A stretch of DNA of 52,762 nt from the NCBI GenBank assembly GCA_002401445.1, contig NVTD01000037.1, forward strand, positions 1 through 52,762, given 5' to 3'. Both the position numbers and the translations under genes were made by a program. Shown here piece by piece: positions 3,338 through 35,470 of this stretch (positions are counted from its first letter, which is position 1; the number at the start of each line of letters is the position of its first letter). Origin of the DNA: Candidatus Wolfebacteria bacterium (GTDB lineage: Bacteria; Patescibacteriota; Minisyncoccia; Phycocordibacterales; GCA-2401445). The notes beneath the pieces were generated by a model that was not told the DNA's origin, searched no databases, and saw nothing but the letters and a program-made list of their open reading frames with translations.

Positions 3338-3351
3338 CTATATATTCTACT

Positions 3352-4989
3352 TTATAAATATTTATTTCCTAATTCTGTAGCGCTTGGATTCTCAATAAAA
3401 ATCTTCGCAAGATCAATAAGATTTGTAAAATTGATATTCGAACCATGATGAGGCTCGACATGTATATCCCCCACATATGTTTTTCCAGTGTTGTGCATTT
3501 CTATAAAATTTGATAATTTTCCATCCAATGCATATATCGCCGACTGTGGAGAGGAGCAAGATACATGAGGATTATTCCTACCATACACCGAATGGTGGAC
3601 TGGGATATGATTTGAGTGCATGTATCCATGCCAATGACATATTCCCATTCCAAATTCTTCAATATTATTTGCTAACTCGGATGCAGAATCAAAAAAACGA
3701 GATATTGAAGCAACCATTGCATTTCCAACAGCGTGAGCCAGTATAACTTGCGTGTCGAATGACGGGCGTGATGTAATCTTTTTTCCAAATCCCTGAGGTG
3801 TATCCAATAACATTCTTCCATTAACCAGTCCAAGCTTCAGAATGTCATTCTCAGGATCAATGTTAGTTTTATCTGATCCTGACCTTTGGCTCAATACTGA
3901 AATATCTGGGATCTTCATTACATAGTGTTCCCCATCGTCAACAATCTGAAACTTTACGTATATTCCGTTTTTATTTTGAATGTAATCACTATCACCAAAT
4001 TCTAAATTCGACAATTTGTCTGGGAGAGAATTTTCCTTATGCACAAGCGACAAATGTGTCGGTAACTGTTTGGCAAGAAATCCAAAGCTCATACCATTTC
4101 GATTATCAAGATGCATTTTACCAATCAAACGGTGGAAATTACTACGGAATGGAAGATCATCTATGTTACGTCCATCAGGAAATAAATTAGTGCTGGCAAA
4201 TTTACTTGATGCACTAATTAGATCTTCTGAGCTTTCTTCGTGTCGTTTATCACTAATTTCAAAAGCATCTTTAGTAACCAGAAATTCGGAAATTTTGTAT
4301 GGTCGAATTGGTGCAACAAGTTTCGGTACAAGTGCATCAATTACACCCCTCTCGATACCTTCTCCTCTACTGAAAACTGGATGGGACGCATTAAAATTGT
4401 ATAGCATCCAATTTTTATCATTTACACATATAGCGATGTTGGTCATATGATGTGCAAACAAAGACATTGATGCGCGAAAATGCTCATCAAAAGATGAATC
4501 CTCAGTAATATGTGAAGGGAAATCAACAAGTGTTATAACAGAATTCTCTTTAAAACTATTGATGCGCTCCATGGGTAAATTGCCAATATCATTTTCCCCC
4601 AGAACAACAATCGAGACTCCTTTTTTTATTCTTTTTCGTCGTAGCATTGCACGTGCATCCTTCCATGGAATATATAGAGATTCTATATTTCTCGCTTTGT
4701 TAAACAATGCAATAATATTGCCAATGAATATTTTAAAAGCCCTACGTACAACTCTTTTACGAGGCAATAAATACATTGACTCACTATATGGGATTATAGT
4801 TACACCAAGCTTGTCGAAAGCTTCTCTAAGTTCGATACTAAATTCTTTGACGTTCTCGCTGATTTTCGTATTTCCAACCGGATAGTATGTAATCAAAAGT
4901 TTCTTTGCCATTCTATCAGTAGTAATATCAACATCTTCCTTAATGCCCAAAATTGCTTGTATCGCTTTTTGTGAAAGTATTTTTCTCAT
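3352..4989 (-). CDS. Unrecognised 545-residue protein, histidine-rich C-terminus
   Basis: I do not recognise this protein. It looks soluble. The N-terminal ~250 residues read like an alpha/beta domain (LLITYYP, VSIVVLGE, SVITLVDFPSH strands). The C-terminal part is dense in histidine (CHWHGYMHSNHIPVHHS, then GDIHVEPHHGSN), which suggests a metal site, though no known metalloenzyme motif is evident. The start at 4989 follows the stop of a 12-codon micro-ORF by one base (TAG-T-ATG), so translation may be coupled. There is no Shine-Dalgarno site. Upstream lies a conserved leader with a terminator, shared with plsC. The histidine kinase gene follows 14 nt downstream. Confidence 0.8.
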   Translation of the reverse strand: MRKILSQKAIQAILGIKEDVDITTDRMAKKLLITYYPVGNTKISENVKEFSIELREAFDKLGVTIIPYSESMYLLPRKRVVRRAFKIFIGNIIALFNKARNIESLYIPWKDARAMLRRKRIKKGVSIVVLGENDIGNLPMERINSFKENSVITLVDFPSHITEDSSFDEHFRASMSLFAHHMTNIAICVNDKNWMLYNFNASHPVFSRGEGIERGVIDALVPKLVAPIRPYKISEFLVTKDAFEISDKRHEESSEDLISASSKFASTNLFPDGRNIDDLPFRSNFHRLIGKMHLDNRNGMSFGFLAKQLPTHLSLVHKENSLPDKLSNLEFGDSDYIQNKNGIYVKFQIVDDGEHYVMKIPDISVLSQRSGSDKTNIDPENDILKLGLVNGRMLLDTPQGFGKKITSRPSFDTQVILAHAVGNAMVASISRFFDSASELANNIEEFGMGICHWHGYMHSNHIPVHHSVYGRNNPHVSCSSPQSAIYALDGKLSNFIEMHNTGKTYVGDIHVEPHHGSNINFTNLIDLAKIFIENPSATELGNKYL

Positions 4990-4990
4990 A

Positions 4991-5029
4991 CTAAATTTTG
5001 TGTACTGTACTTATTATTTTTTTACTCAT
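4991..5029 (-). other. 12-codon micro-ORF, plsC-start remnant
   Basis: The frame reads MSKKIISTVHKI and then TAG; the next gene's ATG follows one base later. PlsC at 8081 begins MSKKVIKIWHIV, so this looks like the first codons of a duplicated plsC that were cut off when the region was rearranged. It may now act as a coupled leader peptide for the 545-residue gene (inference). Confidence 0.45.
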
Positions 5030-5041
5030 TTAGGAAAATAA

Positions 5042-5061
5042 AAAACGCCATACGGCGCTTT
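5042..5061 (-). terminator. Terminator/attenuator before the 545-residue gene
   Basis: The minus strand reads AAAGCGCC-GTAT-GGCG followed by TTTTTTATTTT, an intrinsic terminator only about 13 nt before the micro-ORF start. Any transcript from upstream must read through it, so it could be an attenuator. Confidence 0.6.
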
Positions 5062-5075
5062 ATGATTCATATTAA

Positions 5076-5147
5076 TTAATATCCAATAGAAAATATCACA
5101 GACTGCTCGTCCTTGTTACATTCCTGTCTGTATGAATAGTTTTTCAT
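5076..5147 (-). other. 23-codon ORF in leader copy 1
   Basis: The frame is MKNYSYRQECNKDEQ... ending SIGY-TAA. It is the same length and frame as the ORF at 8128-8199 with no indels, but most of the base differences change amino acids. Conserved length argues for a leader peptide; the replacement pattern argues against strong protein selection. Confidence 0.35.
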
Positions 5148-5217
5148 ATGTAGACTCATCATAGCAAAACACCAAACATTGTGGCAAGTAATCAAAGGCA
5201 ATTATATTGCCACAACC

Positions 5218-5249
5218 AAACGGCTCAACCTCTCGAGGTTGAGCCGTTT
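5218..5249. repeat. 32-nt palindrome, copy 1
   Basis: Arms AAACGGCTCAACCTC and GAGGTTGAGCCGTTT enclose 2 nt. Near-identical palindromes lie at 6776-6807 and 7330-7361, each just past a gene end on the minus strand. This copy follows the remnant at 5263-5304. A perfect 8-bp inverted repeat (TGTGGCAA/TTGCCACA, 5180-5214) lies beside it. The rest of the 4990-5387 spacer holds the leader repeat and a terminator. Confidence 0.85.
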
Positions 5250-5262
5250 GATGTATTTCGTA

Positions 5263-5304
5263 CTAAAAACTACCAACTGGCACGCAATATATTCCCATCT
5301 CCAC
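5263..5304 (-). pseudogene. Remnant of the 3' end of a 6833-7159 paralogue
   Basis: The minus strand encodes VEMGIYCVPVGSF then TAG, matching the last residues VGTGVYYVLVGSL of the membrane winged-helix protein at 6833-7159. The bases beyond the stop also match up to the shared palindrome. The upstream part of this paralogue is not visible, so only a gene-end fragment remains. Confidence 0.55.
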
Positions 5305-5344
5305 TTTTCGCCCATAAGTAGACGTTATTTTTTTATACAAAAAA

Positions 5345-5370
5345 GTTGTATGCAATTTCTTGCATACAAC
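5345..5370 (-). terminator. Intrinsic terminator of the 5388-6650 gene
   Basis: GTTGTATGCAA and TTGCATACAAC form a perfect 11-bp stem with a 4-nt loop, followed on the minus strand by TTTTTTG. It sits 17 nt past the stop codon. Confidence 0.9.
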
Positions 5371-5387
5371 TCGTACTCTTTAGGAAT

Positions 5388-6650
5388 TTAAGCAGCTTTG
5401 TCAAACACTGAAGGAATCAAGTAAGTATTATCCCCACTCATACCAAGTACTTTTTCAATACTCTTTCTTATGACCGCGACACCATGTTTTTTCACAGCAT
5501 CTGTATTGTTCTCAAGACAGGATTCTGCAATAACTGGATGCAACTTAGCGACACCTTCTGCACTTCTCAAGTCAAAGTGCAATCCCAGCACTTGAGTAGA
5601 GACCATGTCAGGAACAACTTTCTTTATAATCTCGTTCTCAATTGGCAGAAGTTCCATTGTCCATTGTTCAACAGCTTTGTCATCATCACCTTGTGAGCTA
5701 CTCTGCCAAAGATCACTCAGTTTTTTATTCGACGCCACTTTCTCCTGAACCATAGAAAAAAATGGAGTTTGTGGTATACGCATAGTAAAATGCTCACCTT
5801 TAGTCCGTCCACCTCCGAGGTGTGTGATTTTTCCCATAGAGGTTTGTCCTGAAACAATCATGAAGCTACTTCGGTTAGGCATAGAATGCAACAAGTCGTC
5901 AGATGCGCCCATGTTATGCAAACTTGCCCCACCACTTGCAGCAGGAGCACTCATACGCACCATTCCGTCCTTTATAAAGGGAACTCCTTTGTGATTGCAC
6001 TGATTACGAAGTTCATTCATGGCTCCAGCCAAGTGGCAAAATGGACGCAATTTAGCTTCGAGATCACATGCTATTCTTGCCAAAGAAGACAATCCTTTCT
6101 TTTTCATGCGGTTGAGTCTCTCCGCCACTTCCGAAAGACTGTCAACAAACAATATAGATGGAGTACCAACGTAATTCCAACCTGCAGATGTGTCATTCCA
6201 CTGCTCGTGATTTTGTAGCGATTTAAAACCAAAACAATTTTCGCTAATCTTCTTGAGTTCTGTAACGAACTCATTGACCTCATGACCAAAACACTTAGAG
6301 TTATCTTCCCATTCGCTGAAAAGTGACTCATATTTACGAAAATGATGCATCAATCGCATATTCGCAAAACATACCCCAAGTTCAATTCCGAGATATGACT
6401 CCCCCCCATGAGAGATGAAATCACCAGTCCCAGCCCCACACCCAGGAAGTCCATCCGGTGTAAAATGAACATTCATCGTGTACATCATTTCATAATAACG
6501 TTGAGCGATTTCATCTGGAATTACCAAGACACTGTCCATTACAGCACCTTTATAATTTGTTAGCACTGAGCTCAATGAACTCGCTAGATTATCAAGTCTT
6601 TTGACAAGATCATCTTTTACCTCTAGTACCTCTGACAATTTCTGTAGCAT
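5388..6650 (-). CDS. Unrecognised 420-residue protein, faint MutS-like features
   Basis: Not recognised with confidence. The product is soluble and mostly helical in its N-terminal half. A stretch near residue 255-280 reads FMIVSGQTSMGKITHL, which resembles the MutS-family P-loop (TGPNxxGKST) but lacks the Ser/Thr after Lys. The preceding segment NELRNQCNHKGVPFIKDG resembles the clamp-to-ATPase linker of MutS proteins. No Walker B (DE) motif follows, so a functional ATPase is doubtful. The start is set by AAAGGA, 6 nt before the ATG. The gene stands alone with a TTGACT/TATACT promoter, a ~75-nt leader and its own terminator. Confidence 0.75.
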   Translation of the reverse strand: MLQKLSEVLEVKDDLVKRLDNLASSLSSVLTNYKGAVMDSVLVIPDEIAQRYYEMMYTMNVHFTPDGLPGCGAGTGDFISHGGESYLGIELGVCFANMRLMHHFRKYESLFSEWEDNSKCFGHEVNEFVTELKKISENCFGFKSLQNHEQWNDTSAGWNYVGTPSILFVDSLSEVAERLNRMKKKGLSSLARIACDLEAKLRPFCHLAGAMNELRNQCNHKGVPFIKDGMVRMSAPAASGGASLHNMGASDDLLHSMPNRSSFMIVSGQTSMGKITHLGGGRTKGEHFTMRIPQTPFFSMVQEKVASNKKLSDLWQSSSQGDDDKAVEQWTMELLPIENEIIKKVVPDMVSTQVLGLHFDLRSAEGVAKLHPVIAESCLENNTDAVKKHGVAVIRKSIEKVLGMSGDNTYLIPSVFDKAA

Positions 6651-6730
6651 TCTCTATCCTTTCGTTTTCAAGTTTCCTAACGGTTTCTTAATTCAGCATA
6701 TATAGCGTGAACTAATATCTATCTAGTCGC

Positions 6731-6758
6731 AGTATACATATTTTACCATATAAGTCAA
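6731..6758 (-). promoter_or_regulatory. Promoter of the 5388-6650 gene
   Basis: TTGACT (6753-6758) and TATACT (6731-6736) are 16 nt apart on the minus strand. The leader that follows ends in GAAAGGA before the ATG. Confidence 0.6.
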
Positions 6759-6775
6759 TGGTTTGTTCCATAGAC

Positions 6776-6807
6776 AAACGGCTCAACCTCGCGAGGTTGA
6801 GCCGTTT
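6776..6807. terminator. 32-nt palindromic terminator, copy 2
   Basis: A perfect 32-nt palindrome (arms AAACGGCTCAACCTCG/CGAGGTTGAGCCGTTT) lies 25 nt past the stop of the 6833-7159 gene. T-rich sequence lies beyond both ends, so it may stop transcription in either direction. It belongs to the same family as 5218-5249 and 7330-7361. Confidence 0.75.
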
Positions 6808-6832
6808 AGTTTTTCATACTAAAAACTACTGT

Positions 6833-7159
6833 TTAAAGACTACCAACTAGTACATAATATACTCCCGTTCCCACTGTGCCGATTTGTTGTATTTTTTCTT
6901 CCTCTTCCAATTCACTCAAATACCGAGTAGCGGTAGCGTCTGATACGCCAAGTAATTGCTCAACATCCTCATTTGTTATCCTCTCCATCGACTGCGCCAA
7001 TTCAAAAATTTTCTTTTTATTTTCTACTTTGGCTTCAAACTGATTTAGCTCTTTTTCTTGCGCTTTTGAATCAGTAGTAGCGGTAGTAGTAGTCACACCT
7101 CGCCCTTTAATCCAAAAACCTAGAGCAAGTCCTGCGATGAAATAGAGTATATTTTCCAT
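6833..7159 (-). CDS. Small membrane-anchored winged-helix protein
   Basis: 108 residues. One N-terminal membrane segment (ILYFIAGLALGFWI) is followed by a threonine-rich linker, a short coiled coil, and a C-terminal helix-turn-helix of winged-helix type (ITNEDVEQLLGVSDATATRYLSELEEE, then a beta-wing ending VYYVLVGSL). Membrane-tethered DNA-binding or adaptor proteins of this build are common but poorly characterised in these lineages. A fragment of a second copy survives at 5263-5304. The function is unknown; transcription control from the membrane is an inference. Confidence 0.75.
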   Translation of the reverse strand: MENILYFIAGLALGFWIKGRGVTTTTATTDSKAQEKELNQFEAKVENKKKIFELAQSMERITNEDVEQLLGVSDATATRYLSELEEEEKIQQIGTVGTGVYYVLVGSL

Positions 7160-7394: not shown

Positions 7395-8081
7395 CTACAA
7401 CCCATACACCTTACTCATTATCATATCTGCTCCCTCTCTATAATCATCTACTGTTGGGTTATATGCTGGTACAAGTGTTTGTGCATCAAATGCACTGCCA
7501 AAAGTCACTGTAACCTTCATCCTGAAAAATAGGAAACGAAAGAATGATGGATTCTCCAGTCCAGTAATTCGAACCGGTACAACAGGTACACCGGTCGCGT
7601 GTGAAAGGAAACTGACTCCCCCATGTGATTTACCTGCTATACCCGTTAGATTGCGCTTACCCTCTGGAAATATACAAATAGTTCCGTCCTGTCTGAGAAT
7701 TTCAAGGAACCATGCTAATGAATCCTTATAATTCTTGTTCCCTGGAAAGGTTGGGTAAGCTCCAAACATTTTGAAAAATTCTCCTCGATACAAAAAACGC
7801 CGAAAACCAAAGTCTTTCCCATACCCACCCTCACGCAGACCTACAAAATACATTGGGGACCAATCACGTGAAAAGAAAGGGAGACATGTACGTATCAGAG
7901 GTCCATCCCATTCACTCACATGGTTTGAAGCAAAAATTGCCGGCCCTACATTGCGCACATTCTCACGCCCCTCGATTTTTAATCCCGCAAAAATTGTAAA
8001 TACAGCCCTAGTGAATATATAGATAGGAACCTGCAGCAATGCTGGGACTATGTGCCAAATTTTTATAACTTTTTTGCTCAT
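7395..8081 (-). CDS. plsC: 1-acyl-glycerol-3-phosphate acyltransferase
   Basis: PlsC-family acyltransferase of 228 residues, expected to transfer an acyl chain to lysophosphatidic acid at the membrane. Visible motifs are NHVSEWDGP (HX4D catalytic block) and FPEGKRNLTG (motif III), followed by VPVVPVRITGLE. The N-terminus is hydrophobic. The start MSKKVIKIW lies just past a terminator-like hairpin with no Shine-Dalgarno site or -10 box between, so expression may depend on read-through from uppP. A finished phospholipid pathway cannot be judged from this window. A second copy of this leader lies at 5024-5169. Confidence 0.92.
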   Translation of the reverse strand: MSKKVIKIWHIVPALLQVPIYIFTRAVFTIFAGLKIEGRENVRNVGPAIFASNHVSEWDGPLIRTCLPFFSRDWSPMYFVGLREGGYGKDFGFRRFLYRGEFFKMFGAYPTFPGNKNYKDSLAWFLEILRQDGTICIFPEGKRNLTGIAGKSHGGVSFLSHATGVPVVPVRITGLENPSFFRFLFFRMKVTVTFGSAFDAQTLVPAYNPTVDDYREGADMIMSKVYGL

Positions 8082-8094
8082 TTGGGAAAAAGAA

Positions 8095-8112
8095 AAACGC
8101 CATACGGCGCTT
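8095..8112 (-). terminator. Terminator/attenuator before plsC
   Basis: Minus-strand AAGCGCC-GTAT-GGCG plus TTTTTCTTTTT ends about 10 nt before the plsC ATG. It would stop uppP transcripts unless overridden. Confidence 0.6.
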
Positions 8113-8127
8113 AATGATTCATATTAA

Positions 8128-8199
8128 TTAATATCCAATAGAAACTATCTCAGACTGCTCGTCCTGACTACCCTCCTCTTTGTATGAACAGTTTTTCAT
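8128..8199 (-). other. 23-codon ORF in leader copy 2
   Basis: The frame is MKNCSYKEEGSQDEQ... ending SIGY-TAA. AAAGG lies 5 nt before the ATG, so it could be translated. It ends 16 nt before the attenuator-like hairpin, an arrangement seen in leader peptides. No run of a single amino acid points to a classical amino-acid attenuator. Confidence 0.4.
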
Positions 8200-14712: not shown

Positions 14713-16068
14713 CTAATAACTCTTCAACTGCTGTGCCCGTTCGTGCTGACGAATCTTTTCATGTGCTTTCGCTTCGATCTGTCGAATACGTTCACGAGTC
14801 ACACCGAACTCTCTTCCCACTTCCTCAAGTGTATGAGTAATACCATCGAGCAATCCATTTCTCATTTCAAGAATCTTTCGTTCCTTTTCTGAAAGATCTC
14901 CCAAAATGTTTTTAACCTGATCTGAGAGAATACGTTGTGATGCTTCTTGATCTGGAGAGAGAATTTTCTCATCTGGAATAAAATCCTTCAAAGTAGACTT
15001 GTCTTCGCTGTCATCTCCTACAGGACTCTCAAGCGAAACGGTATCTTGATTAATCTTTTCAATATTATGAATCTTACTTACATCCAATCCCATCTCAACA
15101 GCAATCTCCTCTGGAAGAGGATCACGACCGAGGTCTTGCGATAGACGTCGTACTACTTGTTTATATTTAGCAATCGTCTCTACCATGTGCACAGGAATAC
15201 GAATTGTTCGTGACTGATCTGCAAGAGCACGTGTAATCGCCTGACGAATCCACCATGTCGCATATGTTGAGAATTTATATCCCTTAGTCCAGTCAAATTT
15301 ATCAACAGCCTTGAAGAGGCCTAGGTTCCCCTCTTGAATCAGGTCGAGCAATGTGAGGTCTGGACTTCGTCCAACATATTTCTTTGCAATAGATACAACA
15401 AGACGTAGGTTCGCTCGTGCAAGAAGGTTTCGCGCTTCTTCATCTCCAGCAACAATTCTCTGTGCCAATTCACGTTCTTCTGCTGCACTCAAAAGCGCAT
15501 ACTGTCCAATACCCTTCAGATACATTTGGATTGAATCATGTGAATTGTCGCTACGTCCTCCATATTTGTATTTACCTGGCGTTGGCTCTGGATCAAGAGA
15601 AAGTAGATTTCCACCCTCTAGTACATCAGTTCCCGCAGTATGAAGAACCTCATATATTTCCTCAAGAAATGCTATGTCTTTTTCAATAGTTGAAAACTCC
15701 TTAAGAATTTCATTATAGGTAACAAACCCTCTGTCTTTTCCCTTTTGAAGAAGTCGTCTCAGCTTTGTATCCTTTTCCTTTTGCTTTGCTGTTTTCTTTG
15801 GTGCCTTTGCTTTCTTTACTGGCTTCTTTTTTGCAACTTTCTTTTTTACGACAGCTTTCTTTGCAACTTTCTTAACAATCTTCTTCTTTGCAGGCTTTTT
15901 AGCGGGAGCCTTCTTTTTAGTAACTTTCTTTGCTGCCTTTTTTACCGGTGCCTTCTTTTTAGTAACTTTCTTTGCAGCAGGTTTCTTTGCAACCTTTTTC
16001 TTGCCCTGAGCTTGTCGAAGCGTTGCCACCTTCTTCTTTATGACTTTTTTCTTTTTTGCTGGAGACAT
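14713..16068 (-). CDS. rpoD: Primary sigma factor with lysine-rich N-terminal tail
   Basis: Sigma-70 family factor of 451 residues. Residues 1-95 are almost entirely Lys/Ala/Val/Pro repeats ([11 protein letters not shown] type), resembling histone-H1-like tails, in place of region 1.1. Region 2 is intact ([49 protein letters not shown]), followed by regions 3 and 4 ([21 protein letters not shown]). It directs RNA polymerase to housekeeping promoters. The tail carries an in-frame copy of the RQAQG repeat. It follows dnaG by 21 nt, recalling the dnaG-rpoD operon of many bacteria. Confidence 0.96.
16004..16020. repeat. RQAQG repeat, copy 1 (in rpoD)
   Basis: CCCTGAGCTTGTCGAAG on the plus strand. 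Translated from the minus strand in the gene's frame it gives ATLRQAQG. Other copies are at 37686 and 48215, in the same frame. Confidence 0.8.
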
Positions 16069-16089
16069 AATATATAAGTAATTCTATTA

Positions 16090-17772
16090 TTAATGTTGTA
16101 TCTTTTGGGATATGGTTTTGTGCTCTGCAAGCAATTGATCGACTCGGGCTTGTTCTCCTCTTCCCTCTGCTTCACGTAATGAACGAGTAATGTGTTCCAA
16201 TTCCTTTCTCAAATATTCTTGCTCTAAATTATGTAAAAGATTTTTTGCCTCATCGGCTATTACTTCTGGTGAGTATAGTTGTTCGACTTCGTATACGTAT
16301 TTCTCGGTCTTCGGGGATTCAAGTAAATTCTTGAGTCTTTCTTTATCGACAATAGATTCGCATTTCTGTCGCAGTTCTACGTCATCTTTGCGACTCAGAA
16401 TAATTCCCGCTATCTGTTCCTCAAGGGTTGTGATACGAGAGCGCACAGGCGTCACCGTACTTTCTTTAACTGGAGTTTGTTCAGAATTGTTACCGGATGC
16501 TAGTTTGAATTGTATCTTCTGAACTTCTTCTCGAACAGCGTCAGGTGTACTGCCTAATGTGTCGCTCGTAACCTGAACAAAGTGTTCCTGCTCAACTTTG
16601 TTTCCAATGCGCGCAATAAACGGCAAAACATTTGATTGAGCATAACGAAGCTTTTCTCTCACTCCCGTCACGTCATATGTTTTGTGTAAATAAAACAAAA
16701 CAATATTCTCGGCACTTTCAATCATATCTTTCCATTTTGATTCACTTTCAATTATTACATCTGCTGGGTCAGATCCGTCAGGTAGTGCAACTACCTTAAC
16801 TTCCATATCTAGACCAAGAGCGATCTCAGCACTTCTTGAGGCTGCACGGAGTCCTGCACCATCGGCATCAAATGCAAGAACTATTGTATTGGTCAATCTC
16901 TGTATCCGAGTCAACTGTCCTAGTGTCAAAGCAGTTCCAGATAGTGCAACAGTATTTTTGAATCCAGCCTGGTGACTCATCACCAAATCCATCTGTCCTT
17001 CTACTACAATACATTGATCTTTCTCTCTCATTTCCTGCTTCGCTCGATCAAATCCATAGAGTACTTCTGATTTGTTATATAAATCAGTTTCTGGACTGTT
17101 AATGTATTTTGCTGGTGCTTTCTCCACCTGTTCATGCTCTGGCAATATACGTCCAGAAAATGCGATTGGGCGACCCGACACATCGAATATTGGAAAAATA
17201 ACACGACCACGAAGTCTGTCATAAAATCCACTCGGTCCCGCCTTTATGAGACCAGCCTGCTCTACTTCTTCTTTTGTGTATCCATTCTTTGTTAGCCAGT
17301 CAAAAAGCATTCGCCAACTATTTGGTGCATATCCAATACGAAATGATGTAACCGTATCGTTTGCGATTCCTCTCTTTTCAATGTACTCGAGCGCCTTTGG
17401 TACCTTTACAAGCACCTTCTCATAGAACCGTGTCGCATCGTGCATTACTTTGCGAAGTCGATCGTTCTTGTTTCCGCTTCCCTGTTCTTGCCACTCGATA
17501 GGTACATGTGCCTTATCTGCAAGAATCTTTAGTGCTCCAACAAAATCAACACCTTCAAACTGTTCTACGAAACTAAAAATGTCACCGTTTTCTCCACAAC
17601 CAAAACAATAGTAGGAACCACGATCTGGAGAGATATGAAGTGATGGTGTCTTTTCATTATGAAATGGACACAATCCTTTAAAATTACCTCCAGCTTTCTG
17701 AAGTTTAATATACCCACCTATTACTTCCTCGATTGGAAGCAATTCTTTTATTTTTTCAGTTGTGTCAGACAT
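16090..17772 (-). CDS. dnaG: DNA primase
   Basis: Primase that lays down RNA primers at the replication fork. 560 residues from MSDTTEKIKELL. The zinc-binding domain shows CPFHNEKTPS and YCFGCGENGD (Cys-His-Cys-Cys set). The RNA polymerase core has the usual RGRVIFPI and GRILPE blocks, and the TOPRIM fold has VVEGQMDLVMSHQAG and LAFDADGAG. The C-terminal helicase-binding part is short and diverged. The open frame extends 18 codons into a palindrome upstream, which is not used. It is cotranscribed with rpoD, as in many bacteria. Confidence 0.96.
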   Translation of the reverse strand: MSDTTEKIKELLPIEEVIGGYIKLQKAGGNFKGLCPFHNEKTPSLHISPDRGSYYCFGCGENGDIFSFVEQFEGVDFVGALKILADKAHVPIEWQEQGSGNKNDRLRKVMHDATRFYEKVLVKVPKALEYIEKRGIANDTVTSFRIGYAPNSWRMLFDWLTKNGYTKEEVEQAGLIKAGPSGFYDRLRGRVIFPIFDVSGRPIAFSGRILPEHEQVEKAPAKYINSPETDLYNKSEVLYGFDRAKQEMREKDQCIVVEGQMDLVMSHQAGFKNTVALSGTALTLGQLTRIQRLTNTIVLAFDADGAGLRAASRSAEIALGLDMEVKVVALPDGSDPADVIIESESKWKDMIESAENIVLFYLHKTYDVTGVREKLRYAQSNVLPFIARIGNKVEQEHFVQVTSDTLGSTPDAVREEVQKIQFKLASGNNSEQTPVKESTVTPVRSRITTLEEQIAGIILSRKDDVELRQKCESIVDKERLKNLLESPKTEKYVYEVEQLYSPEVIADEAKNLLHNLEQEYLRKELEHITRSLREAEGRGEQARVDQLLAEHKTISQKIQH

Positions 17773-27307: not shown

Positions 27308-27796
27308 TTATGCTGCAACTTCTTCTTTTACTTCCTTTTTTGCCTCTTCCTTTACTTCTTCTTTTGGAGCCTCTGCTACCTCTGGAGTAGCCTCTGTTGC
27401 AGAGGCCTCAGTTGGCGCTTGCGCTGGTGCTTCTTCTGCTGGCTTAGATGAAGAGTCATCTGATGGTGTTTCTGCTGCAGAGGCCTCTGCTGCCTTTTCC
27501 TCCTCAGTCTTTTCTGCAACTATGGGAGATTTTTTTGGCAATACGTTTATTTTCTTACCTTCAATTACATTGTTTGCAATAAGGAGATTATGAACGGTAT
27601 CAGAAGTCTGCGCTCCATGTGCAATATGAGCTTTAATTTCATCTCCCTTCAAAATAGTTTTATCAGTTCGAGCATCATATGTCCCAAGAACCTCTTGGAA
27701 CTTTCCACTCTGTGGTCCATTCTTAGAATCAGTCAGAACAACACGAAATGATGGATCGTGTTTTCGCCCTACTCGTTGTAATCGAATTTTTAACAT
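27308..27796 (-). CDS. rpsP: Ribosomal protein bS16 with long acidic tail
   Basis: Small-subunit ribosomal protein. The first ~80 residues (MLKIRLQRVGRKHDPSFRVV onward) are ordinary bS16. They are followed by a ~75-residue tail rich in Glu, Ala, Pro and Lys (EEAPAQAPTEAS, KEEVKEEAKKE), probably disordered. The true start is the second ATG of the open frame, with TTGACC-17nt-TAGTAT ending 7 nt before it, so the mRNA should be leaderless. It is transcribed divergently from rnr. Confidence 0.95.
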   Translation of the reverse strand: MLKIRLQRVGRKHDPSFRVVLTDSKNGPQSGKFQEVLGTYDARTDKTILKGDEIKAHIAHGAQTSDTVHNLLIANNVIEGKKINVLPKKSPIVAEKTEEEKAAEASAAETPSDDSSSKPAEEAPAQAPTEASATEATPEVAEAPKEEVKEEAKKEVKEEVAA

Positions 27797-27803
27797 GGAT
27801 CTC

Positions 27804-27832
27804 ATACTAACAGATTATCTAGCAATGGTCAA
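27804..27832 (-). promoter_or_regulatory. Promoter of rpsP (leaderless type)
   Basis: TTGACC (27827-27832), 17 nt, TAGTAT (27804-27809), then 7 nt to the ATG at 27796. Confidence 0.6.
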
Positions 27833-27842
27833 CACATTCTGC

Positions 27843-27848
27843 TATAGT
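27843..27848 (+). promoter_or_regulatory. -10 box of rnr (leaderless type)
   Basis: TGC-TATAGT ends 6 nt before GTG at 27855. This suggests rnr starts at that GTG and not at the ATGs that lie upstream of the box. Confidence 0.55.
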
Positions 27849-27854
27849 GGCACA

Positions 27855-29810
27855 GTGAAAGATTCTAGAAAGAAGCAAAGCAAGAGCACAAAGACTAGGA
27901 CAGGTGAAATATCTTTAAGCGCTAGAGGCGTTGGCTATATTGCTGACCCAGAAAATGACGCGGATATAGAAATCCAACCTGAAAGTCGAAATTCTGCTCA
28001 GCATGGCGACACTGTAGAAATAGTGCTCGAGGGGAAGATTCGAGGACGCACCCAAGGACGTGTGGTTAAAGTCACACATAGAGCAAGGAATACTTTTGTT
28101 GGTACTGTTGAAAAAGGGTCCAATGGACTAATACTCAAGGCGGACAGTAGAAAGATGAGTGATTCAATATCTCTCTCACTTCCACATAATGCAAAAGTTG
28201 GCGACAAGGTCGCAGTTAAAATATCACAATGGAAAACAAGTAGCGGTAATCCCACTGGAGAGATCACTCGTGCGATCGGAAAATCAGGAACACACAATGC
28301 CGAGATGGAGGCGATTGTTTTTGAAGGTGGATTTGAAATAGATTTCTCTAAACAAGTTGAAGAGGAAGCGAATGGTATAAAAGCACGTCAATCTGAAATA
28401 ATGAAAGAAGAGGAGAAAACCCGTCGTGATATGCGCGGAGTTACTACCTTTACAATAGACCCGGCCGATGCAAAAGATTTTGATGATGCAATATCACTCA
28501 AGACTCTATCTAACGGTGATACAGAGATAGGTGTACACATTGCTGATGTATCGTTCTATGTTCGAGAAGGAACCGAGCTAGACAAAGAGGCATTAAAACG
28601 ATCTCTTTCTGTATATCTTGTGGATCGAACAATTCCAATGCTTCCAGAGGTTCTATCAAATGATCTGTGTAGTCTCAACCCACATACAGATAAACTGGCC
28701 TATTCTGCTATATTCAAAATAAATTCATCTGGAAAAGTATATGACAGATGGTTTGGGCGTACGATAATACACTCCGACAAAAGATTTTCTTACGAAGATG
28801 CGCAAGAGGTACTAAATAAAAAATCTGGTGACTACAGTACAGAGCTCACAACTCTAAACGCTCTTGCAAAAAACATGCAGCGTGAGCGACACAAAAATGG
28901 TGCAATAGATTTTGGAGATGACGAGGTTAAATTTGTACTGGATGAAGACGGCAAGCCAATTGATGTTGTTCGTCGAATACGTACTGATTCTCATAAACTA
29001 GTTGAGGAATTTATGCTTCTCGCGAACCGTGAAGTTGCAACTTATTTCTACAACCTTCATCAAAAAAATAAGACGAGGGAAAATAGTCTTCCTCTAATCT
29101 ACCGCGTGCATGATATTCCTGATGCCGAGCGTGTTGCGAACCTTGCTGTATTTGTTCGAGCACTTGGATTTGAACTTCCTGCCGACACTGAGAACCTCTC
29201 TGCAAAAGATATCAATGCCCTTCTTGAGCGTGTACAGGGGGACGCCCGCGAGCAATTAATCAAAACAGCTGCATTGCGAACTATGGCAAAGGCAATCTAT
29301 ACAACCAAGAATACAGTGGGTCACTTTGGTCTTTCGTTTAAATATTACGCGCACTTCACCTCCCCTATCCGTCGATATCCAGATCTCGTTGTGCATCGCA
29401 TGCTTGATCTCTGTCAGAAAAAATTAAAATTTGATTCAGGTCTTTGGAGAAAATTGGAGGACATTGCTATTAGGGCCAGCGAACAAGAAAAAAAAGCAGT
29501 GGACGCAGAGCGTGCCTCAATAAAATACAAGCAAGTTGAATACATGAGTGATCATATTGGTGAAGAGTTCCAGGGAACTATTACCGGGGTAACTGAATGG
29601 GGTGTCTATGTTGCTGAAGACAATAGTAAATCAGAAGGAATGATAAAAGTACGTGATCTTCCGGATGACTATTATAACCTCGACCAAAAGAACTACGCAT
29701 TGGTTGGAGAGAGAACAAAAAGAATGTTTACTCTTGGAGATACTGTCCACATGAAAGTTGCAGGCGCCAGTCTTGAGCAACGCACCATTGATTACGTGTT
29801 GGTTGAGTAA
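27855..29810 (+). CDS. rnr: Ribonuclease R
   Basis: Processive 3'-5' exoribonuclease of the RNB family, about 651 residues. N-terminal cold-shock-type domains are followed by the RNB core, beginning FTIDPADAKDFDDAISL with its metal-binding aspartates and continuing through SPIRRYPDLVVHR. A C-terminal S1 domain (GTITGVTEWGVYVAED) ends in QRTIDYVLVE. The frame is open from 27795, but a -10 box just before GTG 27855 points to a leaderless GTG start. The last 33 nt recur at 32693-32725. Confidence 0.95.
   Translation: MKDSRKKQSKSTKTRTGEISLSARGVGYIADPENDADIEIQPESRNSAQHGDTVEIVLEGKIRGRTQGRVVKVTHRARNTFVGTVEKGSNGLILKADSRKMSDSISLSLPHNAKVGDKVAVKISQWKTSSGNPTGEITRAIGKSGTHNAEMEAIVFEGGFEIDFSKQVEEEANGIKARQSEIMKEEEKTRRDMRGVTTFTIDPADAKDFDDAISLKTLSNGDTEIGVHIADVSFYVREGTELDKEALKRSLSVYLVDRTIPMLPEVLSNDLCSLNPHTDKLAYSAIFKINSSGKVYDRWFGRTIIHSDKRFSYEDAQEVLNKKSGDYSTELTTLNALAKNMQRERHKNGAIDFGDDEVKFVLDEDGKPIDVVRRIRTDSHKLVEEFMLLANREVATYFYNLHQKNKTRENSLPLIYRVHDIPDAERVANLAVFVRALGFELPADTENLSAKDINALLERVQGDAREQLIKTAALRTMAKAIYTTKNTVGHFGLSFKYYAHFTSPIRRYPDLVVHRMLDLCQKKLKFDSGLWRKLEDIAIRASEQEKKAVDAERASIKYKQVEYMSDHIGEEFQGTITGVTEWGVYVAEDNSKSEGMIKVRDLPDDYYNLDQKNYALVGERTKRMFTLGDTVHMKVAGASLEQRTIDYVLVE
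29778..29810 (+). repeat. Direct repeat at the rnr 3' end (left copy)
   Basis: The last 33 nt of rnr, beginning CAACGCACCATTGATTACGT. They match 32693-32725 at 30 of 33 positions, the first 20 being identical. The pair brackets two minus-strand genes and resembles the flanks of an element inserted at a gene end. Confidence 0.8.
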
Positions 29811-29816
29811 AAAAAT

Positions 29817-29838
29817 ACAGCGCCTAAAAGGACGCTGT
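29817..29838. terminator. Terminator between rnr and the 29860 gene
   Basis: ACAGCG-10nt-CGCTGT. The T-tract is strong on the minus strand and weaker on the plus strand, so it serves both converging genes. Confidence 0.8.
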
Positions 29839-29859
29839 TTGTAAAATATGTACACTATT

Positions 29860-31197
29860 TCAAGTGGATGGTTTTGACAATCGACTTGCCTGAGCCATCA
29901 TATCAATGGCGCTCTTGTGTTTACTTGAGTTGATTATGCGAGTTAACTCTAGTTTTTCCTTTCGCTTTCCACGAAGATCTGTAATGCACAATTTGAGCAA
30001 TTGATATGTCTCTGCTAAATGATGGTCCACCATTTTTAGCTCATCCTCCGCAGAACGATATTCGCGCGCGAGCTCAACAAGCTCCATAAAATACACGCCT
30101 ATATCATCTCCATTTTTTTCAGAGGATGAATTTTCCAACTCTTCGTCTGGAAGATCATCGCTAGTAATATCATTCGACTCTTCTGGGAGAACAGCTATGG
30201 AAACTGACTCCACAATTTCTGGTGTAACATCATTTCCAGCATCTATGATCTCTTTCGAAAACACAGGGAGCTTCTGTTTGAGTGTCTCACGATATCTGTC
30301 AATTAAATCAAGTCCAGATCGCCCCAGACTCACCTTGATCCCTGTAAATACAAGGAATCCTTGTTTTTCTTGCCATCCAATAATGATGGGACGGATAATT
30401 GCGATACTGTGCATTAATCCAAATCTGAGCCGGTTATTGAGTATATCGCAAAGCGGATTGATTTTAGGACTACTTTCGTTATTGATAATATCCAACGCTC
30501 TCGCTATATTCTCTGGAACCTTAAAGAATTCTTCTGGCTCACTCGAACTAGTTTGTTGAATAGAATTTAAGTCGTCGCCATTGATTGGCTCATCTTTCAC
30601 TATTACAGCAGGATCTATAAATTCATAGAATTTACTGCCTCGATTAACAAGAAGTCCCACGGCTTTTGATCTCTGAATAATTGGACCAGCTTCGTGAGAT
30701 GAGATATCCAGAATTTCTGCAAGACTACTACCCATACCATTGCGAGCAATCATAGATTCCTCATTTACTATCAGCCGAAATGCCTCAAGAATTTCTGGGG
30801 GAACAGTCGGATTTTCATCAACTACTCCTTTCTTCAAATTAGCCTTTCTTTTACTTTCAAGTAAACTAGGAACCATTATCTTACCATTTGGATACCTGTG
30901 AATAATCTGATTGTACAAACTATTTGGACCTGAAATCTGAAAGGTACCAGTAGCTGGCTGCTCATCGACAAATGGCTTTATCTCAACATATATAAAGCCA
31001 CCTTTAACCATTGTGAAATGCACATAGCGAGGCCCTTTTTTGCGTGTGGAGCGTGCCTTCTGATATGTAGGACTAAATACACCATGTCTAAGTGGGTCCA
31101 CGTCCAACTTAAGTATGTCTACCAAAACGTATTGTATTAGTTTAAGGCAATTACCAGTAGCTATCAATGTACCACTTATTTCTAGTCGTTCTCTCAT
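29860..31197 (-). CDS. Unrecognised 445-residue protein
   Basis: I do not recognise this protein. It looks soluble and modular: a basic alpha/beta N-terminal domain (to about residue 130), a helical segment with a possible winged-helix (SLAEILDISSHEAGPIIQRSKAVGLLVNRG), an acidic linker, and a C-terminal helical part. The start MRERLE is preferred because GGAG lies 6 nt before it; the frame has one earlier ATG. A TTGACA/TATAAA promoter lies ~75 nt upstream. It sits in the segment bracketed by copies of the rnr end, next to the DGQHR-like gene. Confidence 0.75.
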   Translation of the reverse strand: MRERLEISGTLIATGNCLKLIQYVLVDILKLDVDPLRHGVFSPTYQKARSTRKKGPRYVHFTMVKGGFIYVEIKPFVDEQPATGTFQISGPNSLYNQIIHRYPNGKIMVPSLLESKRKANLKKGVVDENPTVPPEILEAFRLIVNEESMIARNGMGSSLAEILDISSHEAGPIIQRSKAVGLLVNRGSKFYEFIDPAVIVKDEPINGDDLNSIQQTSSSEPEEFFKVPENIARALDIINNESSPKINPLCDILNNRLRFGLMHSIAIIRPIIIGWQEKQGFLVFTGIKVSLGRSGLDLIDRYRETLKQKLPVFSKEIIDAGNDVTPEIVESVSIAVLPEESNDITSDDLPDEELENSSSEKNGDDIGVYFMELVELAREYRSAEDELKMVDHHLAETYQLLKLCITDLRGKRKEKLELTRIINSSKHKSAIDMMAQASRLSKPST

Positions 31198-31275
31198 TTT
31201 AAACTCCATATGTTAAGTTGCTCCATTTGGGATCATAATTGGCCACCAGACCAATACCAAACAGCTCTATGCATT

Positions 31276-31304
31276 TTATATCATAAAAACTCTATTTTGT
31301 CAAA
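31276..31304 (-). promoter_or_regulatory. Promoter of the 29860-31197 gene
   Basis: TTGACA (31299-31304), 17 nt ending TGA, TATAAA (31276-31281). The -35 is fused to the T-tract of the preceding terminator. Confidence 0.75.
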
Positions 31305-31310
31305 AAAATA

Positions 31311-31334
31311 CCCTGCGTCCTCAGACACAGGGTT
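31311..31334 (-). terminator. Terminator of the DGQHR-like gene
   Basis: ACCCTG-12nt-CAGGGT followed by ATTTTTTTG on the minus strand. Confidence 0.85.
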
Positions 31335-31352
31335 TGAATTGTATGAGATGGG

Positions 31353-32498
31353 CTATTCGTCGGTAAGATCCGGACCCTGACCATTTGTCTCTGGGTCAGC
31401 TTCCAGCTCCAGAACATCAGCGATTGGATCAGGCTCAGTATTCTGATTTATGTATTTTGGATTCACTTTGAGCCAGTTTTTTTTCTGTAGCCCTTTGTTC
31501 ATATCATCACGCATAAGCGCATATAGCATATCAAGGGCAGAGCCACTTGCACCGGCCAACTGCTCAATACGAGGATCCGCAACACTAAACATCCCTAGTT
31601 TCCTCCGTGCTTTAACCTTCACCACAAGTTCTCTACCATTCCAAAAGTCGGTATGGGTGGAAAATAGACGAGCTAGGGTCATGACAAATCCGGCCTTCAT
31701 CCAAGAGGCTGAGCCTGGAGCGAGTGACAGCCGTTTAATGCCCCATGCACCGTCAATGATATCGAAAAAGGTGGTGATGTTTTTAACAAACTTATCGTCA
31801 CCAATTTCATCAGCCAACTTACTCAGCGATTGTGCAATTATATTTATTTTCGTTGCTATTCCCGGCACAATGTGAGCATGCAAGCGTGTGATAACTTTGA
31901 CTAACGTTGCTGCGGTCATCATCTCCTTTGACTTCATTCGCTGTTCCCAACAAATGCGGTTGTGCATGGCGAAATCCTGATTGCCATTTGTATTTGTGGC
32001 CATCTGATGAATCAGTGCAATCGCCTGATTCTCATGTCGCATATTGCGCACCAAAATACTTGCTGATAATCTGGTACGTTCTGCATTAAGCCGATAAAAC
32101 AACGCACGCTCCCATTCGACAGTAGTGTCAAAATACAACGAGGCACCCAGGGAAACATCCTTCCTTCCGTCTGGATCTGCAATCGCTGCAAGCGCTGCGT
32201 TTACACGTTGCCAGCCGTCGATTGTGTACACGTTGCCTGTGATAGAAAACCGTCCATCACGTTGATTGTACTTGTGTCCTCGTAAACCAAGAACAATGTC
32301 CGGTACAGAATCTCCGATGATGAACGCCTCCTTAAGAGAAGCAGCGCGAGCGCCGGGGAGAATCTCCCGTTGATAATCATCAATTTTGAGCAAAGATAGA
32401 ACTTCTGGTAGCAATGCGCCCCTGAGTATTCTTCCACCTTTTTCACCTGGTAATTGCTGCAGTGCAGCATGAGTCAGTACAATATTCGTGTTTCTCAT
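31353..32498 (-). CDS. DGQHR/DndB-like protein (tentative)
   Basis: 381 residues from MRNTNIVLTHAALQQ. The segment YTIDGWQRVNAALAAI resembles the DGQHR motif of DndB-type and ParB-like proteins, with Trp in place of the second Gln. It is followed by FYRLNAERTRLSASIL, which resembles the F-x-x-I-N-x-x-Q-x-x-L-S-x-S block of the same group. DndB relatives regulate DNA phosphorothioation, and DGQHR proteins often occur in mobile or defence loci, but no dnd or restriction genes are here. The frame opens 47 codons earlier, over the promoter and operators, so that start is unlikely. No Shine-Dalgarno site is visible. Confidence 0.6.
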   Translation of the reverse strand: MRNTNIVLTHAALQQLPGEKGGRILRGALLPEVLSLLKIDDYQREILPGARAASLKEAFIIGDSVPDIVLGLRGHKYNQRDGRFSITGNVYTIDGWQRVNAALAAIADPDGRKDVSLGASLYFDTTVEWERALFYRLNAERTRLSASILVRNMRHENQAIALIHQMATNTNGNQDFAMHNRICWEQRMKSKEMMTAATLVKVITRLHAHIVPGIATKINIIAQSLSKLADEIGDDKFVKNITTFFDIIDGAWGIKRLSLAPGSASWMKAGFVMTLARLFSTHTDFWNGRELVVKVKARRKLGMFSVADPRIEQLAGASGSALDMLYALMRDDMNKGLQKKNWLKVNPKYINQNTEPDPIADVLELEADPETNGQGPDLTDE

Positions 32499-32591
32499 AG
32501 TATGTGCAATGGTGTTGATTCCGCAATGGAATATGAACCACTTTGTTTTTTCAATGATCAATGTTATTACACCAAATCCGTAATGGACTAT

Positions 32592-32639
32592 ACGGTGTAC
32601 CGTCCATACATTGGTACCATGTATAAGTAAATTTGTCAA
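32592..32639 (-). promoter_or_regulatory. Promoter with two palindromic operators
   Basis: TTGACA (32634-32639), 17 nt, TACCAA (32611-32616). A near-palindrome ATACATTGGTACCATGTAT (32606-32624) covers the -10, and a perfect one, ACGGT-GT-ACCGT (32592-32603), covers the likely transcript start. This looks like repressor control of the DGQHR-like gene, perhaps autoregulation. Confidence 0.5.
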
Positions 32640-32692
32640 TGATATATTTTCTCGGACCTACTCCACACCGAGACTATATTGAGACAGCAAAA

Positions 32693-32725
32693 CAACGCAC
32701 CATTGATTACGTTTTGGTGGAGTAG
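32693..32725 (+). repeat. Direct repeat of the rnr 3' end (right copy)
   Basis: It encodes QRTIDYVLVE and a stop in one frame, like the end of rnr, but has no upstream rnr sequence. It matches 29778-29810 at 30 of 33 positions. Confidence 0.8.
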
Positions 32726-32754
32726 TTTACACCTTTCGGAAAATGTGGTATTCT
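32726..32754 (+). promoter_or_regulatory. Promoter of the 32800-33144 gene
   Basis: TTTACA (32726-32731), 17 nt, TATTCT (32749-32754). It starts immediately after the rnr-end repeat. Confidence 0.65.
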
Positions 32755-32799: not shown

Positions 32800-33144
32800 A
32801 TGAAAGAAAAAGGAGAAAAAGGAGAATTTGCTGATGTTTTCACACTAAGGGATGCAAAAGTTCTTGAAGTAGGTGACCCGGAAATACGGTCATCTGTATT
32901 TAGATTTTGGGATAGTCAGGAGAAGATACATCTCTTCTGCTACCGAACAAAGAATAATAAACCAGTGATTCTGATCCGATCCTCATGGGAGATTCCCCGT
33001 CTTATAGACAATGGGTTAACCAATTGCACTGTTGGAGACAGTACCCTAACTTTGATTCGAAAAGCTATCGAGGACTGGAAGAATGGGCTACGCGGTGCAG
33101 AAACATATGAAGAATTGGTTGCTAGTATTTGTAAGGAATGCTAG
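32800..33144 (+). CDS. Unrecognised 114-residue protein
   Basis: Small soluble protein with a charged N-terminus (MKEKGEKGEFADVF), beta-rich middle (KIHLFCYRTKNNKPVILIRS) and helical C-terminus ending CKEC. Not recognised. The start is set by GGAG, 7 nt before the ATG; the frame opens 19 codons earlier, overlapping the promoter. It has its own promoter and a terminator shared with smc. Confidence 0.75.
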   Translation: MKEKGEKGEFADVFTLRDAKVLEVGDPEIRSSVFRFWDSQEKIHLFCYRTKNNKPVILIRSSWEIPRLIDNGLTNCTVGDSTLTLIRKAIEDWKNGLRGAETYEELVASICKEC

Positions 33145-33161
33145 ATCAATTAATATCTCAA

Positions 33162-33190
33162 AAAACCATCGATACAGTATCGACGGTTTT
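33162..33190. terminator. Bidirectional terminator, gene 32800 and smc
   Basis: AAAACC/GGTTTT outer and TCGATAC/GTATCGA inner stems, T-rich beyond both ends. It overlaps the smc stop codon. Confidence 0.9.
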
Positions 33191-35436
33191 TATTTTGCCA
33201 CACTCACTGCTTCGTCGAATTTCACAGACAAGAGTTTTGAAATACCATCACTTCCCATCGTTATACCGTAGAGTACTCCTGCGCGGCTCATTGTCTCACG
33301 GTTGTGCGTTATTAAAATCAATTGAGAATTCTCCGAAAGTTTTGCAATCATATCTCCATACTTTCGTGAGTTGGCCTCATCGAGTGCCGCATCTGTCTCA
33401 TCAAGAATAACAAACGGTGGTGGGTTAACTTGAGAGATGGCAAAAAGAAGTGCGATCGAGGTAAGAGCTCGCTCCCCTCCTGAGAGCATCATCAATCCCT
33501 TTGTTTTTTTATGAGGAAGAGCAATGTCTACTTCAATACCCTTTTCTACTTCCTCCTCCTCAGATGTATCAACATCATCTCCTAGCAACTCATCCATAAG
33601 TTTTCGCCTTCGCTTTTTCTCTTCCACAACAAATATTTTCGCGGAACCACCTCCAAACATGAGGGTAAAGAAATCATGGAACTGAGTATTTATTTTATTT
33701 ATACCGATGTTGAATTCCTCAGACAATTTTTTTGCAAGTTCATCAATGAGCACACGCAATGCATCTGCTGACTTTTCCAAGTCTGCAACCTCTCTGCCGA
33801 GAAACGCATCACGTTCTGTTGCCTCTTCATATTCTTTTATAACATCGTCGCTTCCACCGCCACCCATGTCTTCAAGTCGTATTTTTATTCGCTCGATAAT
33901 ACGAATTCTTTCCTCTTGTTTAGAGCGATCCTCTGACATGACCTCGTCTACTCTAACTGTGGCACTATCATATTGAAGCACTCCTCTTCCTATCAATACA
34001 GCTCCTTCGTTTAGTTCACCTTCAAATGAATTCTTAACACGCTTCAGTTGATCGAGGGAAGAAGTCAGATTGTTTAGTAACAACATTACTTCGTTTTGTC
34101 TTGTCATTGCTTCAAACAGTGTTCTCTCTGCCTCTCTGTTCTCGCTACGACCACGATCAAGCTCAGCGCGTAATTCCTTCATGTCTCTTGTTAGTCCTTC
34201 TTCTACATCGCGAACAGATTTCATTTCTTTTTCTATTTCATCCTTTTCACGAATTAAGTTATCGTGCGATACAACATCCTCCTCCTCAACCTTTGAGGTA
34301 TCTGTCATATAGGCAGTCCTGAAATCTGAAATGACTGTATCAATTTTTGACAAAACAACACGAATTTTTTCAATGTCATTACTCTCTCTCGCATCCCTTA
34401 AAGAGTCACGAATGTCTGAAAAAACTGATTGTACTTTTGATCGAGCTACATTTCCATCCGTGTTCGCATTTCGAGCACGTCTTTCAACGTCTCTTGCATA
34501 CGCATCAAGTGATCCTTCAATACGACCTAATCGACGCACCAACTCCCCTTTCTTTACTTGTGTTTCCTGTGTTCTACTCTCAATGGAAATTATTTTGTCC
34601 TGACTACCGTCTTGTTTGTCATCGTCCTCCAAAGTACTCTTTGATGCAATAATCTTTTTTGCGAGTGTATCTCTCTCTATCTTCAATGGCCCAGATTCTC
34701 TTTCAATTCTTTGTCCTTCTTCCTTTATGTATACCTCCTCACGTGCCAAATAGTCATTATATAAATCTCTTAATTCAACGCGCATCTCTGCTGCCTTCTC
34801 AATCTTTTTTACTTGTCTATTTAAAAATTTAATATGCGGTGCAATTTCACGTCGCAGGGATTCAACAGATTTTATATTCTCTTCTGTCTTGCCAAGCTTT
34901 CGTTCACTCTCAAGACGTTTGTATTGATATATTTTAAGTCCAAGAGCATCCTCAATCATCTCGCGTCTCTCTTTTGGGCTTGCACTCAAAATACGATCGG
35001 CTTCACCTTGTGAAATAATATGGTGTCCAGATGACCCAATATTGGCAGCAGCGAGCATTTCTCCAATGTCTTTAAGTCTTACAGCACTCTTGTTTATAAA
35101 GTAATCATTGCTCCCATCACGATGCACGATACGCTCTACAATTACCTCATCAAAATCAATATTAAAAAGCCTGTCTTTGTTATCAAAAATAACTTTTACA
35201 CTTGCCCGATTTGCCTTTGGAGAATTCTTTGCACCATTAAAAATAAGATCTTCTCCCTTCTTTCCACGTAGTGATTTAATAGATTGCTCACCGAGAGCAA
35301 ATCGAAACCCTTCTGCAATGTTTGATTTACCAGATCCGTTTGGACCAACAATTGCAGTTATGGGTGTATCGAAATGTAAATCGCCTTTCTTGGCAAATGA
35401 TTTGAAACCCGAGAGTTCTAGAGACTTTAAACGCAT
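33190..35436 (-). CDS. smc: Short SMC-type chromosome segregation ATPase
   Basis: 748 residues, far shorter than the ~1170 of ordinary SMC. The N-terminal head has MRLKSLELSGFKSF and Walker A GPNGSGKSN. The C-terminal head has the signature LSGGERALTS, Walker B FVILDETDAALDEAN, and ITHNRETM. Between them are charged coiled-coil segments, but I see no glycine-rich hinge domain. It still probably acts as a dimeric DNA-loop or chromosome-compaction ATPase. The start is supported by TGC-TATTAT ending 6 nt before the ATG. ScpA and ScpB are not in the window. Confidence 0.93.
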   Translation of the reverse strand: MRLKSLELSGFKSFAKKGDLHFDTPITAIVGPNGSGKSNIAEGFRFALGEQSIKSLRGKKGEDLIFNGAKNSPKANRASVKVIFDNKDRLFNIDFDEVIVERIVHRDGSNDYFINKSAVRLKDIGEMLAAANIGSSGHHIISQGEADRILSASPKERREMIEDALGLKIYQYKRLESERKLGKTEENIKSVESLRREIAPHIKFLNRQVKKIEKAAEMRVELRDLYNDYLAREEVYIKEEGQRIERESGPLKIERDTLAKKIIASKSTLEDDDKQDGSQDKIISIESRTQETQVKKGELVRRLGRIEGSLDAYARDVERRARNANTDGNVARSKVQSVFSDIRDSLRDARESNDIEKIRVVLSKIDTVISDFRTAYMTDTSKVEEEDVVSHDNLIREKDEIEKEMKSVRDVEEGLTRDMKELRAELDRGRSENREAERTLFEAMTRQNEVMLLLNNLTSSLDQLKRVKNSFEGELNEGAVLIGRGVLQYDSATVRVDEVMSEDRSKQEERIRIIERIKIRLEDMGGGGSDDVIKEYEEATERDAFLGREVADLEKSADALRVLIDELAKKLSEEFNIGINKINTQFHDFFTLMFGGGSAKIFVVEEKKRRRKLMDELLGDDVDTSEEEEVEKGIEVDIALPHKKTKGLMMLSGGERALTSIALLFAISQVNPPPFVILDETDAALDEANSRKYGDMIAKLSENSQLILITHNRETMSRAGVLYGITMGSDGISKLLSVKFDEAVSVAK

Positions 35437-35442
35437 GAGGAT

Positions 35443-35448
35443 ATAATA
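35443..35448 (-). promoter_or_regulatory. -10 box of smc (leaderless type)
   Basis: TGC-TATTAT on the minus strand ends 6 nt before the ATG at 35436. The upstream terminator of the 35516 gene ends about 20 nt away. Confidence 0.6.
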
Positions 35449-35470
35449 GCATTTCAATGGGTAACAAAAA

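Follow-up and report, generated by a model that had tools for sequence, protein, structure and literature searches.

The question raised by this locus is how 2.9 kb of DNA came to lie directly behind rnr, the gene for RNase R, between two copies of the end of that gene. The locus was analysed within a window of 52,762 nt, i.e. the whole stretch of DNA from a Candidatus Wolfebacteria bacterium (contig NVTD01000037.1). Regeneration of the end of a target gene, with the displaced fragment left at the other border, is a hallmark of genomic islands (PMC4383910, PMC12884075), and a first-pass annotation had accordingly proposed a small island here, brought in by site-specific integration. We find this reading right in outline: foreign DNA sits at the 3' end of rnr, the gene has been restored and its old tail displaced. 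However, site-specific integration is unproven, as there is no integrase except an Xer-type one, no palindromic core in the repeat, and the same scar at unrelated genes. We consider this last point, a scar seen again at unrelated genes with no integrase to account for it, more interesting than the island reading itself. Most likely, with a probability of roughly 0.45, the 2.9 kb are imported DNA that entered by Campbell-type homologous recombination and not by an integrase reaction.

The two copies of the rnr tail (Table 1) have the same orientation and, as annotated, are identical at 30 of 33 positions, with a perfect match over the first 20 nt; both translate to QRTIDYVLVE followed by a stop codon. 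The three differences all fall on third codon positions and are synonymous (GTG/GTT, GTT/GTG and TAA/TAG), which shows that both copies evolved as the ends of working genes. The likeness stops at the stop codon, and the non-coding sequences that follow are not alike. When the whole 1.12-Mb genome was searched with the tail, only these two places were found, and the next best match within the window reached 19/33. Among 400 random 33-mers taken from the window, whose best matches were mostly 19–21, not a single one had a 30/33 match elsewhere in the window (two reached 29), ruling out a chance origin of the repeat. The window contains no tRNA gene that might have served as the target, a search of 27–36 kb for structured RNAs at the junction gave no Rfam match, and a literature search for rnr as an integration site returned nothing relevant.

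Table 1. Features of the rnr–smc interval (positions in the window)
Feature	Position	Strand	Basis or remark
rnr (RNase R), target gene, intact	27795..29810	+	RNB, CSD2, S1 domains
Tail copy 1, functional rnr end; part past the crossover presumed donor-derived	29778..29810	+	sequence comparison
Predicted hairpin directly 3' of rnr, T-run on minus side	29817..29839	.	fold energy ~-12 kcal/mol
P0001, 449 aa, orphan	29860..31209	-	predicted coiled coil near C-terminus
P0002, DGQHR-like ParB/Srx-fold protein	31353..32498	-	listed ORF reaches 32639
Tail copy 2, resident rnr end moved aside, in frame up to stop	32693..32725	+	sequence comparison
Promoter-like TTTACA-17 nt-TATTCT directly 3' of copy 2	32726..32754	+	sequence reading
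P0003, small orphan from the resident rnr–smc gap	32800..33144	+	listed ORF start 32743
smc, conserved convergent neighbour of rnr	33190..35457	-	SMC_prok_B; synteny

We found rnr and smc as convergent neighbours at 100 distinct loci, with a median gap of 605 bp and gaps of 110 bp or less in 18 of them; the gap of 3,383 bp in this genome is near the top of the range. Since the pair is conserved and its gap usually short, the interval here appears to have been enlarged by inserted DNA. The short gaps in this comparison, like all relatives compared, come from families other than that of this genome. Longer gaps of relatives hold unrelated, mostly metabolic genes, and the 25 most frequent families in other rnr–smc gaps include no integrase. 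In fact, G040, a genome of a different family within the same order, was the only one among the other distinct rnr–smc loci to show the scar, and with unrelated metabolic cargo elsewhere we rejected the idea that rnr is a dedicated hotspot for one element. Behind the insert, the resident rnr tail and P0003 are still present. P0003 more likely starts at the ATG that is preceded by GGAG than at the listed position, and the predicted promoter in front of it, in the sequence that begins directly after copy 2 (TTTACACCTTTCGG), probably serves this gene. Homology-facilitated illegitimate recombination is expected to delete resident DNA of about the size of the insert; of the resident DNA, at least the gene end is still present here. 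The smc gene beside rnr is short, with 755 aa here and 797 aa in G040 versus 1,181 positions in the bacterial SMC model.

Only two genes, P0002 and P0001, both on the minus strand, lie between the tail copies, and neither contains an integrase domain; on both counts the first-pass annotation was correct. The hairpin behind rnr is probably the terminator of a P0002–P0001 unit and common to rnr, and transcription of this unit would begin from a promoter-like TTGACA near 32634, which suggests that the insert is a self-contained transcription unit on the opposite strand. P0001 belongs to no family in Pfam, NCBIfam, PADLOC or PHROGs, is absent from the 98 other genomes searched, and its structure prediction (pLDDT 32) gave no confident model. 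P0002 had been described as DGQHR/DndB-like. This likeness holds for TIGR03187, albeit below the curated cut-off (E=2.2e-6, 27.6 bits; cut-off 58.85 bits), and extends to a ParB/Srx fold, while the start had to be moved to 32498 because four homologues from four other genomes align from Met48. The N-terminal domain was modelled at a pLDDT of ~80, and its fold matches Noc (Foldseek E=3.5e-4, probability 1.00), further ParB proteins and, weakly, the GmrSD enzyme BrxU. This modelled fold together with a DGxxR-type motif places P0002 in the ParB/Srx-fold superfamily; DGQHR, GmrS and ParB/Srx domains are known to be related (PMC4619093). Like DndB and other DGQHR proteins (TIGR03187, PF14072), P0002 combines the DGxQR motif, present in 5 of 5 homologues, with a YQR further upstream and an N-terminal fold of the ParB/Srx type (PMC4619093). 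Unlike them, it scores under the family cut-offs, reads DG[WL]QR instead of DGQHR, has no dnd genes alongside and is partnered by an orphan protein. DndB is a regulator (PMC4507180), and by analogy the likeliest role of P0002 would be that of a nucleotide- and DNA-binding regulator. Searching PDB sequences with the P0002 family gave no match. PADLOC matched neither gene, and the suggested defence-type cassette is thus unproven.

Of several hundred genomes searched, only a handful have a relative of P0002 (loci L138, L249 and L250), at varied chromosomal places and in two cases with sec genes alongside. This scattered occurrence points to a patchy, probably transferred gene. Three relatives of P0002 lie in differing settings, with downstream partners not recognisably related to P0001, and we therefore dismissed a conserved P0002–P0001 pair. 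Phages, plasmids and viral contigs as carriers of the element were likewise discarded: they yielded no relative of either gene, and the core of the rnr tail is absent from 2.9 million viral contigs.

For every ORF end we looked downstream for a displaced tail in frame, covering ~333 kb of the 1.12 Mb of this genome. Two clear cases were found among its 314 ORF ends and three displaced tails among the 322 of G040, as compared to none among 1,637 ORF ends of other genomes (~1.84 Mb of distinct control loci), where the single hit belonged to a paralogue, being the last part of a long ORF. An upstream control scan of the same two genomes found no displaced tails. Besides rnr (33 nt), a xer-type gene of this genome (contig C23) has a displaced tail of 38 nt with two differences, one synonymous and one K/R. 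In G040, the last 45 nt of rnr are repeated 376 bp downstream (four differences, all synonymous), smc has a 57-nt displaced tail around a RelE-like toxin gene (three synonymous differences), and an aminotransferase gene has a more diverged one of ~42 nt. The targets are unrelated genes. Taken together, the four clear cases contain 12 differences, 11 of them synonymous (P ~6e-7 if the synonymous fraction is taken as 0.22), which argues that the second copies were functional gene ends and not ageing duplications, and that the insertions are recent relative to the decay of displaced tails. The first-pass annotation had taken relatives that lack the two genes and still carry both repeats as speaking against an insertion. 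G040 formally is such a relative, but what is repeated there is the rnr tail of G040 itself, and the cargo between the copies is different, which points to an independent event at the same place. Together with the conserved short rnr–smc gap and the synonymous differences, this scar supports the view that foreign DNA was inserted.

A distant integrase, which had been suggested as a possible source of the reaction, was sought in the whole genome. The only tyrosine recombinase (PF00589) is a single gene of the Xer type, as in most of the 25 genomes compared; G040 also has no tyrosine recombinase beyond one Xer-type gene, and none of the tail-flanked inserts contains an integrase gene. One serine resolvase occurs, in this genome only and on another contig. 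We rejected it as the cause since serine integrases are not known to leave repeats of 33–57 nt. No displaced tail has a palindromic or inverted-repeat core (P 0.45–0.92 versus other gene tails). ComEC is present in both genomes and a ComM/YifB-type gene in this one; Patescibacteria have been described as competent, with recombination genes retained (PMC12455944).

A restored gene next to a displaced tail points to one crossover within the tail that joined the resident gene to a molecule with the tail of a relative. The incoming DNA would have been circular at the crossover and would have brought along a short rnr tail from a relative, with the self-contained opposite-strand operon P0002–P0001 behind it. 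One Campbell-type crossover within the common rnr tail would then add the 2.9 kb, leave rnr whole, and displace the resident tail and the old gap gene P0003 to the far side of the insert. Most likely the DNA was taken up from related cells and recombined by homology, through a RecA-type enzyme; we infer the circular intermediate, the order of events and the enzyme. Homologous recombination would fit the varied targets, the varied left boundaries and the presence of ComEC in both genomes. In an E. coli experiment, a single crossover of a shortened, re-circularised molecule gave a partial duplication of a gene end as the main product (PMC3240628). As in those products, the insert here stands beside a truncated second gene end whose left boundary is variable; in contrast, the repeats comprise 33–57 nt and not 109–950 bp, and the donor is diverged (PMC3240628).

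This shortness is a weakness of the recombination reading. The perfectly identical stretches of the different cases measure 18–48 nt, near or below the usual RecA need, which counts against homologous recombination; that longer repeats were lost later by recombination is only an argument. An att-site reaction naturally yields short repeats. It is quite possible that an island integrated by its own tyrosine integrase, with the rnr 3' end as attB and an attP carrying the replacement tail, and that the integrase and most of the element were lost later or the enzyme was supplied in trans. A restored gene with a displaced fragment in the same orientation and a short repeat is the Islander signature for tRNA genes (PMC4383910), and many islands target protein-coding genes and restore them (PMC12884075). 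Indeed, as in Islander/TIGER-type islands, the rnr end was regenerated by incoming sequence and the displaced fragment downstream marks the border; moreover, rnr was targeted in two genomes of different families, and the 331-bp interiors in G040 resemble remnants. Unlike such islands, however, neither inserts nor genomes offer any integrase besides Xer, no tail has the inverted-repeat core, several kinds of protein genes are targeted, and the inserts span ~0.3–2.9 kb. With four different target genes, several integrases would have to have been lost, and the missing rnr-tail core in viral contigs also argues against this origin. We narrowly favour homologous recombination over such a decayed integrase-driven island.

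Two further explanations are much less likely. An assembly artefact, in which two co-occurring strains were spliced so that the rnr tail and gap of strain B follow the gap of strain A, appears improbable. The assembly is of the metagenome type with 62 contigs, synonymous differences resemble strain polymorphism, and a single small gene lies between the displaced tails of rnr and smc in G040, much like the variant gap of another strain. Yet the junctions are free of Ns, the copies agree for 20, 13, 8, 48 and 6 nt up to their first difference, which is no constant k-1 overlap and in three cases is below any usual k, and strains ~9% apart in the tail should assemble separately along the whole gene. 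We give hardly any credence to copy 2 as what is left of a complete second rnr that was acquired or arose by duplication and was then deleted except for its last 33 nt: an in-frame tail with synonymous differences would be expected here too, but five independent deletions would have to end 33–57 nt before a stop codon.

The locus also resembles the minimal mobile elements known from Neisseria (Saunders and Snyder 2002, described in PMC4269198) in having unrelated cargo between the conserved rnr and smc, no mobility genes, and competence genes in the genome. The cargo between rnr and smc indeed differs among relatives. The locus differs from those elements (PMC4269198) in that DNA was added and the resident tail kept, with no clean gap-for-gap exchange. 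How the ultra-small, streamlined Patescibacteria gain genes is largely open, as competence genes are common and integrases scarce. Some of them might repeatedly gain cassettes at core-gene 3' ends via short homology and without an integrase, displaced tails being the scars, though we regard this generalisation as rather doubtful. Such scars date an insertion, locate its borders to the nucleotide and reveal which way the DNA was transferred. Scanning for them is feasible in any genome and needs no integrase, whereas island finders such as Islander depend on one. If the insertions were integrase-free, the tails would document a route of gene gain missed by such tools.

Further repeat structures were seen in both genomes. 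In the window, at 5217–6865, the tail of a winged-helix gene (6833–7159, minus strand) is repeated ~1.56 kb downstream at 5263–5295 (26/33, with changes that are not only synonymous), and its terminator is repeated as well, as a 33-nt hairpin at 5217–5249 with 1 mismatch. The copies flank an unrecognised 420-aa gene (5388–6650, minus strand), and by its sequence the arrangement looks like an older, more degraded tail-flanked insert. In G040, at locus L037 (4006–5619), a copy of the rnr tail is followed by a 148-aa orphan gene and then by a copy of the smc tail, with a RelE-like remnant and a RelE-like toxin gene on either side; this represents either two insertions or one variant gap within another. 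Another tail-flanked insert of G040 (L286, ~14800–16600) contains two small ORFs with identical 34-residue C-termini around a methyltransferase-like gene. Within the tail-flanked insert of the xer-type gene on contig C23 (L140), and adjoining that gene, we noted a cassette-like array at 3185–4640 of small plus-strand ORFs of 272, 136 and 86 aa, one of which matches the Janus/Ocnus family; they have in common the leader AGGTGTTCCCxAACAATACACCAGTACAGGA and a 58-nt trailer. A reverse transcriptase gene (RVT_1, E=1e-12) lies at 898–1848 of the same locus, near the displaced xer tail. Finally, an 88-nt direct repeat (81/88) occurs in the window at 5021–5108 and 8073–8160; it spans the start of an acyltransferase gene (7395–8081, minus strand), with a hairpin leader resembling an attenuator and the first codons, and in its other copy it stands ahead of a short remnant, MSKKIISTVHKI-stop.
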